The position numbers and the translations under genes were made by a program. This document shows, piece by piece, positions 25,589-51,164 of a DNA stretch of 64,000 nt. This DNA comes from Synechococcales cyanobacterium CNB. GTDB lineage: Bacteria > Planctomycetota > Phycisphaerae > Phycisphaerales > UBA1924. Location of the stretch: positions 62,001-126,000 of the forward strand of contig SZOZ01000008.1 of assembly GCA_030263455.1 (NCBI GenBank), in the 5' to 3' direction. Within the stretch, counting starts at the first letter, position 1; every line of letters starts with the position of its first letter. The notes under the pieces were generated by a model. That model did not search any database and was not told the origin of the DNA. It saw only the letters and a list, made by a program, of their open reading frames with translations.

Positions 25589-25593
25589 AAGGC

Positions 25594-25723
25594 GTGACGA
25601 AGTGAGGGAGTGACGGAGTCACGGATTGGGACCGGGACGCGGGGCGTTCGCGGACCGGGTGGGTCAAACACTTCGCCACTGCTCACATCGCCGCTCCGTC
25701 AGTCCTGCATTCCGCCATTCCCC
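25594..25723. repeat. Degenerate 8-bp-period repeat, inverted pair, in the infB-ylxP gap
   Basis: The left arm (25594-25625) reads GTGACGAA, GTGAGGGA, GTGACGGA, GTCACGGA. The right arm (about 25669-25723) carries the complementary pattern in the same 8-bp rhythm: CTCCGTCA, GTCCTGCA, TTCCGCCA among more degenerate units. The arms are separated by 43 bp. The right arm ends at the ATG of ylxP, so it occupies the ribosome-binding region and no normal Shine-Dalgarno is left. The transcript could fold into a long imperfect hairpin. Related units occur at 37745 and 48478. Confidence 0.65.
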
Positions 25724-37421: not shown

Positions 37422-38648
37422 TTACTCCAGCCCGAAGCGTGCAACCGGCACCGTGCCGGGCACGGACGATCGCTCCACGCGACCGCGGCGCAGGCACGAG
37501 ACGAGGTCTGCCATGTCCGGCGGCACCGGCGCGGTGAAGACCATCGGCTCGCCCGAGGCGGGGTGCTCGAAGGCCAGCAGGCCGGCGTGCAGGGCCTGGC
37601 GAGCGATGACGGTGCGCCCGGTCTCGTCGGTGAAGGGCCGGCCGCCGTACATGTCGTCGCCGACGATGGGCCAGCCGAGGTGCGAGAGATGGACGCGGAT
37701 CTGGTGCGTGCGGCCGGTCTTCAGTTCGAGTTCGACAAGCGAGAAGCGACGGAGCGACGGCGCGACGGCGTGACGGGGCCACGACTCCGGCAGTTCGTAG
37801 CGTTCGTGCACGCGGCAGATCGTTACGCTCGGGCGGCCGAGGTCGTCGTGGCGCACGACCTGCTTCTCGCGGTAGCCCTTCTCGCGCGAGGGGTGAGGGC
37901 CGATGGGCAGGTCGATGACGTCCGTGACCGGCTCGACCCGACCTTGCACGACGGCGAGGTAGCGTTTGTCCACGGTACGTCGCTCGAACTGACGACCGAG
38001 CCGCCAGTGCGCCTCGTCGTCCTTGGCGAAGACGATGCAGCCGGAGGTGTGCCGGTCGAGCCGGTGGACGACACCGGGGCGGGCGAACTCTTCCCCCACC
38101 GCCGAGAGGCTGCCGCCGGAGACGTTGCGGAATCGCCAGGCGAGGCCGTTGATGAGGGTGCCGGAGAGTTCGGAGCGTGCGGGGTGGACGATGACGTCCG
38201 GCGCCTTGTTGAGGACGATGAGGCGGGCGTCCTCGTAGAGCACGTCGAGGGGCATCTCCTCGGGCTGGAGCCCCTTCTCCTGAGGGGGGGGGACGACGAC
38301 CTCGACGCGGTCGCCAAGCCCGAGTCGGGTCGATGGCTTGGCGGGCCGATCGTTGACGGTCACGCCGCCGGACTCGATGAGCCGCTGGAGCCGGGTGCGG
38401 CTCATGAAGGTGATGCGGCTGGTGAGATAGACGTCGAGACGCGCGTGGAGGTCGCGCTGGAGCGTGAAGGTCACGCGGGGGAGTCGCTCGTCCTCGTCCG
38501 ATTCGGCGTCGGCGGCGGCCGCCGCCCGCTCACGGGCGCGCTCGACGGCGCGCCGGATGGCGTCGGGGTCCACCTTGCCGCCGGGGAGCAGGAGGTCCTC
38601 GCCCAGCGACGCCTGCACGGTATCGGGGTTGTCAGGTCGGGCGGTCAT
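37422..38648 (-). CDS. rluD: RluD-like pseudouridine synthase
   Basis: A 408-residue enzyme that isomerises uridines in 23S rRNA. It has a 65-residue charged N-terminal extension, an S4 RNA-binding domain (about 65-125) and the RluA/RluD catalytic domain with Asp198 in HRLDRHTSG, then ELKTGRTHQIRVHLSHLGWPIVGD. An extra segment of about 15 residues, PESWPRHAVAPSLRR, lies just before that and is encoded by an 8-bp-period repeat (37745-37776). ATG start overlaps the stop of the upstream TPR-like gene (ATGA), implying coupling. A 9-base run (38284-38292) encodes part of VVVPPP. Confidence 0.9.
   Translation of the reverse strand: MTARPDNPDTVQASLGEDLLLPGGKVDPDAIRRAVERARERAAAAADAESDEDERLPRVTFTLQRDLHARLDVYLTSRITFMSRTRLQRLIESGGVTVNDRPAKPSTRLGLGDRVEVVVPPPQEKGLQPEEMPLDVLYEDARLIVLNKAPDVIVHPARSELSGTLINGLAWRFRNVSGGSLSAVGEEFARPGVVHRLDRHTSGCIVFAKDDEAHWRLGRQFERRTVDKRYLAVVQGRVEPVTDVIDLPIGPHPSREKGYREKQVVRHDDLGRPSVTICRVHERYELPESWPRHAVAPSLRRFSLVELELKTGRTHQIRVHLSHLGWPIVGDDMYGGRPFTDETGRTVIARQALHAGLLAFEHPASGEPMVFTAPVPPDMADLVSCLRRGRVERSSVPGTVPVARFGLE
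37745..37776. repeat. Four-unit 8-bp repeat inside the rluD-like gene
   Basis: Plus-strand units AGCGACGG, AGCGACGG, CGCGACGG and CGTGACGG, read in the minus-strand gene as part of an extra segment relative to RluD proteins I know. The unit is close to GTGACGGA found at 25594 and 48478, so it belongs to the same repeat family. Confidence 0.65.
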
Positions 38649-48470: not shown

Positions 48471-48477
48471 GCCTGAA

Positions 48478-48517
48478 GTGACGGAATGACGAAGCGATCG
48501 AGTGGGAGAGCGGGCGA
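48478..48517. repeat. Degenerate 8-bp-period repeat between iscS and iscU
   Basis: Five units, GTGACGGA, ATGACGAA, GCGATCGA, GTGGGAGA and GCGGGCGA, begin 7 bp after the iscS stop and end 20 bp before iscU. The first unit is identical to the third unit of the infB-ylxP left arm. Confidence 0.6.
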
Positions 48518-48536: not shown

Positions 48537-48971
48537 ATGGCGTACAGCAGTAAAGTGATCGACCACTACGAGAACCCGCGGAACGTCGGCTCGTTCGGGA
48601 CAACGGGCGAGGTCAAGCAGCGCAAGGACGTCGGCGTGGGGCTTGTCGGCGCGCCGGAGTGCGGCGACGTGATGCAGCTTCAGATCCGCGTCAATCCCGA
48701 CACCGGCGTCATCGAGGACGCCCGCTTCAAGTGCTTCGGGTGCGGGTCGGCGATCGCGTCCAGTTCGCTCGCCACCGAGTGGCTCAAGGGCCGCACCGTG
48801 GACGAAGGGCTGGCGATCAAGAACACGCAGATCGTCGAGGAGCTGAGCCTGCCGCCGGTGAAGATTCACTGCTCGGTGCTCGCCGAGGACGCGATCCGTG
48901 CGGCGATCGAGGACTACAAGCACAAGAACGGGCTTGGCGCGGAGGCGGCGAGCGACGCCCGCGCCCGCTGA
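48537..48971 (+). CDS. iscU: Iron-sulfur scaffold IscU/NifU-type
   Basis: A 144-residue scaffold on which Fe-S clusters are built with sulfur from IscS. The three cluster Cys are visible: Cys42 in APECGD (with Asp44), Cys69 in CFGCGSAI and Cys112 in IHCSVLAED. An extra Cys66 precedes the second. The C-terminal 20 residues are an Ala/Arg-rich tail. A 16-bp tandem repeat covers the stop codon. Confidence 0.95.
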   Translation: MAYSSKVIDHYENPRNVGSFGTTGEVKQRKDVGVGLVGAPECGDVMQLQIRVNPDTGVIEDARFKCFGCGSAIASSSLATEWLKGRTVDEGLAIKNTQIVEELSLPPVKIHCSVLAEDAIRAAIEDYKHKNGLGAEAASDARAR

Positions 48972-49009
48972 CGTCCGCGCCCGCTGACGTCAGCGCCCGC
49001 TGACGCCCG
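48962..49009. repeat. Three-copy 16-bp tandem repeat at the iscU stop
   Basis: CGCCCGCTGACGTCCG, CGCCCGCTGACGTCAG and CGCCCGCTGACGCCCG follow each other exactly. The first copy contains the iscU stop codon. The unit may be two 8-bp modules. Confidence 0.85.
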
Positions 49010-49073
49010 CGAACCGACCCGCCGCCGCCCCGCGTAGAATGTGCATCGACGGGCCGAGGCCCGAGGAGCCAGC

Positions 49074-50165: not shown

Positions 50166-51164
50166 CTACACCAGCCCCTTCGCCCCCAGCCAGCGTTCGG
50201 CGTCGAGGGCGGCCTGGCAGCCCATGCCCGCGGCCGTCACCGCCTGGCGGTAGTGGGCGTCCGCCACGTCGCCGGCCGCGAAGACACCGTTGATGTTCGT
50301 CGCGCTGGACCGGCTGCGGAGCAGCACGTACCCCTGCTCGTCCATCTCGACGCCGGAGCCTTTGAGGAACTTCGTGGCGGGGGTGTGCCCGATCGCCACG
50401 AACAGGCCCCCCACTTCGAGTTCCGACCGCTCGCCGTTGGTCGTGCTCTCCAGCGCGACGGCCCGGAGTTTCTCGTTGCCGTGCTGGTCCTTGGCGCTCA
50501 GGCAGTCCACGACCACGCTGTTCCAGATGACTTTCGCGTTGGGCTTGGAGAGGAACCGCTCCTGCATGATCTTGCTGGCGCGGAGCGAGTCGCGCCGGTG
50601 GATGACGTAGACGGTGGAGGCGAACTTGGTGAGGTAGGTAGCCTCTTCCATGGCGGTGTCGCCGCCGCCCACGACCGCGAGCGGGCGGCCTCGGAACATC
50701 GGGAGCGCACCGTCGCAGACCGCGCAGGCGGAGACACCGCCGCCGGCCCGGGCGAGGCGGAGTTCGCTCTCGAGTCCCAGCCAGTTTGCTGTCGCGCCGG
50801 TGGCGATGATGACGGCGTGAGCGTGCTCGACCGTTCCCTTGTTCGTGTGTAGTTCGAAGGGTCGCTTCGAGAAGTCGCAACGGACGACATCCTGCCCGAG
50901 CACCTTCGTGCCGAAGCGTTCGGCCTGCTTCTGGAACTTTTCCATCATTTCCGGCCCGGCGACGCCCTCCGGGAAACCGGGGTAGTTCTCGACGTCCGTG
51001 GTCAGCATGAGCTGCCCGCCGGGGAGGATGGGACCGGGGTCGTTCTTGGGCACGCCTGCGAAGACGACGGGCGAAAGGCTCGCCCTGGCGGCATAGATCG
51101 CTGCGGTCCAGCCGGCGGGGCCGGAGCCGATGATCGCGAGGGCGTGCGGCTTGGCGTCGATCAT
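50166..51164 (-). CDS. trxB: Thioredoxin reductase
   Basis: A 332-residue FAD/NADPH enzyme that reduces thioredoxin. FAD motif GSGPAG at the N terminus, redox CAVCD (Cys147 and Cys150), NADPH motif GGGDTAMEEA, and C-terminal GVFAAGDVAD. It sits downstream of a secreted hypothetical gene on the same strand. Together with DsbD it supplies reductant to cytoplasm and periplasm. Confidence 0.95.
   Translation of the reverse strand: MIDAKPHALAIIGSGPAGWTAAIYAARASLSPVVFAGVPKNDPGPILPGGQLMLTTDVENYPGFPEGVAGPEMMEKFQKQAERFGTKVLGQDVVRCDFSKRPFELHTNKGTVEHAHAVIIATGATANWLGLESELRLARAGGGVSACAVCDGALPMFRGRPLAVVGGGDTAMEEATYLTKFASTVYVIHRRDSLRASKIMQERFLSKPNAKVIWNSVVVDCLSAKDQHGNEKLRAVALESTTNGERSELEVGGLFVAIGHTPATKFLKGSGVEMDEQGYVLLRSRSSATNINGVFAAGDVADAHYRQAVTAAGMGCQAALDAERWLGAKGLV

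Follow-up and report, generated by a model that had tools for sequence, protein, structure and literature searches.

An in-frame octamer array in a Phycisphaerales RluD gene and its putative relatives in other genes, spacers and genomes

Arrays of seven- or eight-base units recur in distant bacterial phyla, and the available sections of the related literature establish no mechanism for their origin. In Geobacter metallireducens, tandem octanucleotide sites of two classes (1 and 2) are paired on opposite strands at variable distance and heptanucleotide elements occur both between and within genes, with recognition by IHF/HU suggested by the authors (PMC2700814). The GGGAATC and GGGGAYT heptamer arrays of Xanthomonas and Nostoc are dispersed, form convergent inverted pairs in Xanthomonas, have been discussed as G-quadruplexes and are under-represented in genes (PMC4692102). 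Rickettsia palindromic elements (RPE) and the GTAG/CGTC REPs are palindromes that occur inside conserved genes, in frame in the case of Rickettsia, and uvrB and genes for tRNA pseudouridine synthases are among the REP/RPE hosts in other bacteria (PMC3733652). Marine Beggiatoaceae carry abundant, short TAACTGA direct repeats, intergenic according to the title of the report (PMC4679880). All four papers are cited here from excerpts. Arrays of the kind treated below are already published for the Geobacter, Xanthomonas/Nostoc and REP/RPE systems; literature searches on octamer repeats in Planctomycetes or Phycisphaerae returned nothing relevant. Here we analyse an octamer array inside a pseudouridine synthase gene that was pointed out in a first-pass annotation of the window, a stretch of 64,000 nucleotides from the planctomycete assembly GCA_030263455.1.

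The RluD array and related spacers in the window

The host gene (37422-38648, minus strand) encodes a protein with Pfam domains S4 and PseudoU_synth_2 and the conserved TGRTHQIRVH, with ribosomal large subunit pseudouridine synthase D as best PDB match (E 2e-45), which identifies it as RluD, a 23S rRNA pseudouridine synthase. At 37745-37776 TRF reports period 8, 4.0 copies and 91% matches with consensus AGCGACGG, and the lag-8 score is 22 of 24; on the coding (minus) strand the four units are of TCGCTCCG type and form a pyrimidine arm. The array is translated in frame as PRHAVAPSLRR, part of an extra segment, PESWPRHAVAPSLRR (37746-37790, minus strand), in a length-variable loop before FSLVELELKTGRTHQIRVH. 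A lag-8 scan of the 64 kb that required at least 20 of 24 matches found two places only, this array and 25594-25625.

RluD orthologues from 50 of 61 genomes were aligned, 34 from the window's own family (f1) and 16 from families f2-f5; G008, G027 and G032 of f1 as well as G040, G041, G045, G048, G049, G053, G057 and G060 were left out, and family f6 lies outside the comparison. In the 16 orthologues from f2-f5 at most a few residues separate the two conserved blocks and the segment is absent, in agreement with the first-pass annotation, which had seen an extra segment there; on this alignment it is an insertion. A conserved protein domain or lineage signature was rejected, as the segment is limited to the genus among the 50 aligned orthologues. 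Within f1 the loop measures 0 to about 60 residues. A period-8 array occupies it in six of the 34 f1 orthologues, those of three congeners (the window's own genome, G000, with G001 and G002) and of G030, G034 and G013, with lag-8 scores of 18 to 24 of 24; the best other scorable loop scores 14. Mapped on a tree built without the loop, this label takes 4 changes, at least 3 of them forced by well-supported branches, so the arrays reached the loop more than once or arrived early and were repeatedly lost. As few as 4 changes were found in 9 of 500 label shuffles, a low number probably due to the clustering of the three congeners. All three share the same 78-nt stretch, and the insertion is therefore older than the genus as sampled; substitutions are the only differences, without any change in loop length among the three.

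The octamer is common to the second place, as had been claimed: the array at 25594-25625 (plus strand, TRF) consists of GTGACGRA units, a purine arm, and lies between infB, recognized by Pfam, and a gene that is, by its sequence, presumably ylxP. The whole spacer (25589-25723, plus strand) is predicted to form a single long imperfect hairpin of -60.3 kcal/mol, an energy given without shuffle control, in which the array pairs with a decayed partner; its 3' side contains CACTTCGCCACT...GCTCCGTCA, and the strict inverted-partner score is only 9.5 against 7 for the control. The proposed link to the iscS-iscU spacer is weak. One exact GTGACGGA is present between the genes with Aminotran_5 and NifU_N domains (Pfam), yet its neighbours are decayed, with 5 mismatches to the consensus in 24 bases (48474-48497, plus strand). 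The window also contains, at 48954-49011, a tandem repeat with a period of 16 bases and 3.6 copies, GACGCCCGCGCCCGCT (TRF).

Dispersal, abundance and orientation

Three TCACTCCG units with at most 3 mismatches were used to search the own genome and 100 relatives for the family (TCACTYCG)n, which was matched in 22 of the 101, in keeping with the dispersal that had been proposed. Counted as overlapping matches rather than arrays, G013 has 80, G030 49, G019 45, G001 43 and the own genome 7 at 5 places. The reversed-pattern control is 0 in G000, G001, G013 and G019. It is not clean in G030 (48 against 49 matches) and G002 (6 against 14), exceeds the matches in G082 (8 against 0), G012 and G035 (each 3 against 0), and gives single matches in G018, G048, G052, G066, G073 and G088. 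A looser count in the own genome, with up to 3 mismatches, has 47 matches where the control has 25, so that only the close ones are informative in this count. A second unit, GGGATCGA, is matched in 20 of the 101 genomes (48 matches in G001, the uvrB site discussed below among them), and a third, GGCACGGA, in 29, where the reversed-pattern control is void because the repeat reads the same backwards. Judged by these sequence matches, the RluD array is a member of a dispersed octamer family.

Among 84,980 species, a scan for four exact TCACTYCG units found 61 stretches, several sharing a genome; 40 have titles that name Planctomycetota, with Phycisphaer- in 30 cases, and the other 21 belong to different phyla. 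Named strains of unrelated phyla with such arrays are Microbacterium oxydans BEL163 (L165), Pandoraea nosoerga LMG 31109 (L167) and Salinimicrobium nanhaiense J15B81-2 (L162); most remaining non-Planctomycetota stretches are from metagenome bins, in which single contigs may be contaminants. In bins of Bacteroidia and Kapaibacterium (L133, L148, L159) long octamer arrays, of up to ~420 bases in L133, have units that drift along the array. In L129 and L147 the units change within one run, GGCACGGA/GGCACGAA giving way to GTGACGGA, which looks like one family grown onto another. Arrays lie at or near contig ends in G002 (C1, C250, C100) and in L137, L142 and L150, and one array site of the own genome has its flanks split between two contigs of G002; assemblies may break at arrays.

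Abundance was evaluated in samples of 206 kb (own contig), 240 kb (G001) and 400 kb (G013), with genes called by a simple codon-usage script, some of whose calls may be wrong (G000:C8:55707, an array at the start of a called gene, is a possible example). The own sample has three period-8 arrays, whereas ten order-3 Markov sequences average 0.0. Two of its period-8 arrays are in called genes, where shuffling the codons of each gene leaves an expectation of 0.1; chance from codon usage is thereby rejected, and the observation of an octamer run in RluD that is in frame and above chance holds. Strict period-8 arrays number 3, 3 and 10 in the own, G001 and G013 samples and strict period-7 arrays 0, 10 and 15, so that period 8 is enriched in all three and period 7 in two; periods 5, 10, 11 and 13 give 0 or 1, and periods at multiples of three also exceed expectation. 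The period-7 arrays (G013 L193-L212, G001 L282-L293) have units such as GGGGAGC, GGGCATT and AAAAGCG, some with inverted partners; in number they equal or exceed the octamers, and the orientation rule described below applies to both.

With the criteria relaxed slightly, G013 shows a strong intergenic excess of period-7/8 arrays: 30 of 34 lie in spacers, which make up 14% of its sample. In G001 the figure is 9 of 21, with 9% spacer, and for the own sample it is 2 of 6, with 11% spacer; by count, these two samples have more arrays inside called genes than between them. Of the 41 intergenic arrays, 36 have a gene end at most 60 bases away. The purine-rich strand points inward from the spacer edge in 34 of these 36 (periods 7 and 8 and all three samples pooled, with 27 of the 36 from G013 and the arms of one pair not independent). 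Owing to the inward purine strands, pairs of arrays can form hairpins. A strict test for inverted partners of period-8 arrays was positive in G013 for 4 of 10, in the own sample for 0 of 3 and in G001 for 0 of 3. A partner was detected in 12 of 29 array-selected G013 rows; a score of at least 12 was also reached by random control pieces for 5 of these rows, probably because they fell on other arrays.

These results bear on ordinary slippage, by which chance seeds in loosely constrained sequence would have expanded, with shared units reflecting nothing but base composition. The RluD and UvrB loops are indeed variable and of low complexity in much of the family, with or without arrays, and the lack of strict period-7 arrays in the own sample also fits slippage. 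The enrichment of periods 8 and 7 but not of 5, 10, 11 and 13, the recurrence of a single unit at different sites, where the reversed pattern has 0 matches in the own genome, G001 and G013, and the inward orientation argue against it. We regard slippage of chance seeds as highly improbable, since the shared unit and the orientation largely refute it.

Coding copies and turnover between congeners

The UvrB and RluD loops can be aligned across species and are constrained by reading frame, by which unit replacement, transposition and slippage can be told apart. Besides RluD, in-frame arrays in open frames occur in uvrB and der of the own genome, purL of G001 and uvrD of G013, genes whose products are presumably functional. 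An in-frame array in an essential-type gene, which had been considered unusual, is thus not unique to RluD here.

Loci of uvrB were collected from 30 of 59 genomes with a match and 27 showed the motif (G036, G045 and G053 did not); G016 was read in part only. Two G002 stretches, L272 and L273, were set aside. The loop before DESHVT carries a lag-8 array in 7 of 25 f1 genomes, with scores of 15 to 19 of 20 where other lags and array-free loops reach 14, which makes G030 marginal (15 of 20 against 14 for the best non-array loop). The repeat unit is not fixed: the genus keeps the uvrB site and changes the octamer, which is of GTGACGGA/GTGGCAGA types in G000, GTGGCAAA in G002 and GGGATCRA in G001. 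Outside the genus the units are GGCACGGA in G026, GCGACGGA in G022 and, in the 3' arm of G034, TCTCTYCG. Judged by eye in the seven genomes, the uvrB unit is also used elsewhere in the genome in four clear cases: in G026, with 23 GGCACGGA matches (two being the uvrB site) against 1 for TCACTCCG; in G001; and in G034 and G022, whose family matches, TCTCTCCG and TCGCTCCG respectively, are on contigs other than that of uvrB. G000 and G002 fit and G030 is unclear.

Hairpin pairing at the uvrB site beats 200 of 200 shuffles in G001, G002 and G030; in G000 and G034, 13 and 47 of 200 shuffles are as good. By eye, the polarity of the spacer arrays recurs in the in-gene copies, with the purine arm 5' and the pyrimidine arm 3' in RluD of G030, G034 and G013, in uvrB of five genomes and in uvrD. 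All frames of a perfect GTGACGGA array contain a stop and those of the complement contain none, so that coding copies either show the TCACTCCG strand or have purine arms with mostly TGG for TGA, as for instance in purL and uvrB.

Arrays are seen to be gained or lost, in either species, when the sequences of congeners are compared. Of 18 array sites in G001, 13 are alignable in the own sample, which keeps an array at 2 (one being RluD) and lacks it at 11; conversely, three of six own sites have an array in G001 and three do not. Among the six sites aligned in detail, one has a heptamer pair in G001 and none in the own genome, and for the pair at G001:C16:65772 the own genome retains a decayed left arm only. 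An intact gene, presumably MnmG-like, has a heptamer array in G001, where fixed anchors enclose exactly 21 nt more than in the own genome (66 and 45 nt) and both frames are open. Another in-gene array, at 50734 in G001, shows a difference of 18 nt, which is not a multiple of its 7-base unit. For five own sites the flanks were found in both congeners, one split over two G002 contigs. The first-pass annotation had suggested that the repeats expand or move; gain or loss between congeners agrees with this, whereas RluD itself shows substitutions and no length change within the genus.

The arrays could also be selected sites, either for regulators or nucleoid proteins or as mRNA hairpins near gene ends, with coding copies as by-products. 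The strong placement at gene ends and the fixed orientation would be expected of such sites, and in the excerpted text paired octamers of G. metallireducens are interpreted as sites of a global regulator (PMC2700814). However, units differ between congeners at one site, and a congener is often without the array (11 of the 13 alignable G001 sites, 3 of the 6 own sites), and selected sites appear quite improbable to us.

The main rival is a transposable REP/RPE-like element, of which a trans-acting enzyme would move whole hairpins, the arrays being their arms and the in-frame copies the survivors. Gain or loss between congeners speaks for it, as do the in-frame copies in uvrB and a pseudouridine synthase gene, hosts also reported for REP/RPE in the excerpts at hand (PMC3733652), and matches to the Y1 transposase in 21 of 22 array-bearing compared to 57 of 79 other genomes (p 0.02). 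Restricted to strong Y1 matches, the difference lacks significance (p 0.07, and 0.17 inside the family), the own genome has weak ones only, and G019, with its 45 array matches, has no Y1_Tnp match; a RAYT as required partner was accordingly rejected, the association being weak. Furthermore the element sequence is not fixed, since unit, number and centre differ among the own-genome sites compared. At the six aligned G001/own sites, whose edges are blurred, no target duplication is visible (0 of 6). Transposition is a serious contender, though an unlikely one.

Proposed rewriting of palindrome arms and comparison with known systems

Our preferred reading, held tentatively and with a little less than even confidence, treats the array in RluD as one arm of a palindromic element with octamer arms, which came to lie in a tolerant loop before the genus split and whose units are rewritten within the genome. 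Such elements would be carried by many genomes of the window's family. They would consist of a purine-rich array with units of 7 or 8 bases, then a spacer, then the same array in inverted form, often with only one arm recognizable, and would be placed mainly at gene edges and between genes. Units might be homogenised within a genome by concerted evolution. Slippage, and template switching to arrays at other sites, would rewrite the arms, and a site would persist while its unit changes. Octamers shift the reading frame unless they are added or removed three at a time; in-gene copies may survive only in loops that tolerate extra residues, with frame-keeping length changes (three units, 21 or 24 bases). 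The copies probably do nothing useful for RluD.

This proposed rewriting of arms takes in what the genome comparisons document, namely dispersal, the orientation rule, in-frame copies in conserved genes, gain or loss, and unit differences at one coding site. In its favour the uvrB unit tracks the genome, with different units at the same site in three congeners, the 21-nt heptamer difference fits the frame rule and one arm can be lost. Against it stand the failures of the strict partner test, the two weak uvrB hairpins, the constant RluD length, the marginal uvrB score of G030, the matching of units by eye with a void control for GGCACGGA, and the 18-nt site. Neither a target duplication nor a clean insertion boundary was detected; template switching was not observed, nor was any donor-recipient pair traced. 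We further consider whether a shared active process writes and rewrites 7-/8-base arrays in inverted pairs, from a genome-specific pool of units, in spacers and coding loops, which we find distinctly doubtful. If it did, a dedicated enzyme or an RNA template could be the source of its product, and the RluD and UvrB loops would record the unit current in each lineage. For annotation, the SLRHSVTP-like peptides encoded by such arrays count as translated DNA repeats and not as protein domains.

Among the known systems, the Beggiatoaceae repeat is, from the excerpt, a heptamer of other sequence (PMC4679880). REP/RPE have a recognizable palindrome and tag, while the arms here are tandem octamers that change sequence between species; as for the GTAG/CGTC tags, CGTC is present in TCACTCCG, and GGGATCGA, GTGGCAAA and GGCACGGA are without both. 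The likeness to RPE, as far as the excerpts describe them, is in the in-frame copies in RluD, uvrB, der, purL and uvrD (PMC3733652). In the excerpted literature on these systems we found no switching of units at one coding site between congeners, and the G. metallireducens work, as excerpted, makes no between-species comparison of units at one coding site (PMC2700814). As in G. metallireducens, tandem octamer units recur at many sites here, and the class 2 consensus TCTCCGTS(Y), as given in the available text, is compatible with a rotation of TCTCTCCG and one base from TCACTCCG (PMC2700814). Unlike the heptamers of Xanthomonas and Nostoc, the unit here has eight bases, GTGACGGA/TCACTYCG, and no GGG run. 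A G-quadruplex element was rejected for the GTGACGGA unit, which has no run of three G, and quadruplexes therefore cannot explain the shared architecture for that unit; G-rich heptamer arrays do occur in G013. In Xanthomonas, according to the excerpted text, the purine strand is sense after stops and antisense before starts (PMC4692102), and the same rule is followed by the 34 of 36 arrays near gene ends here.
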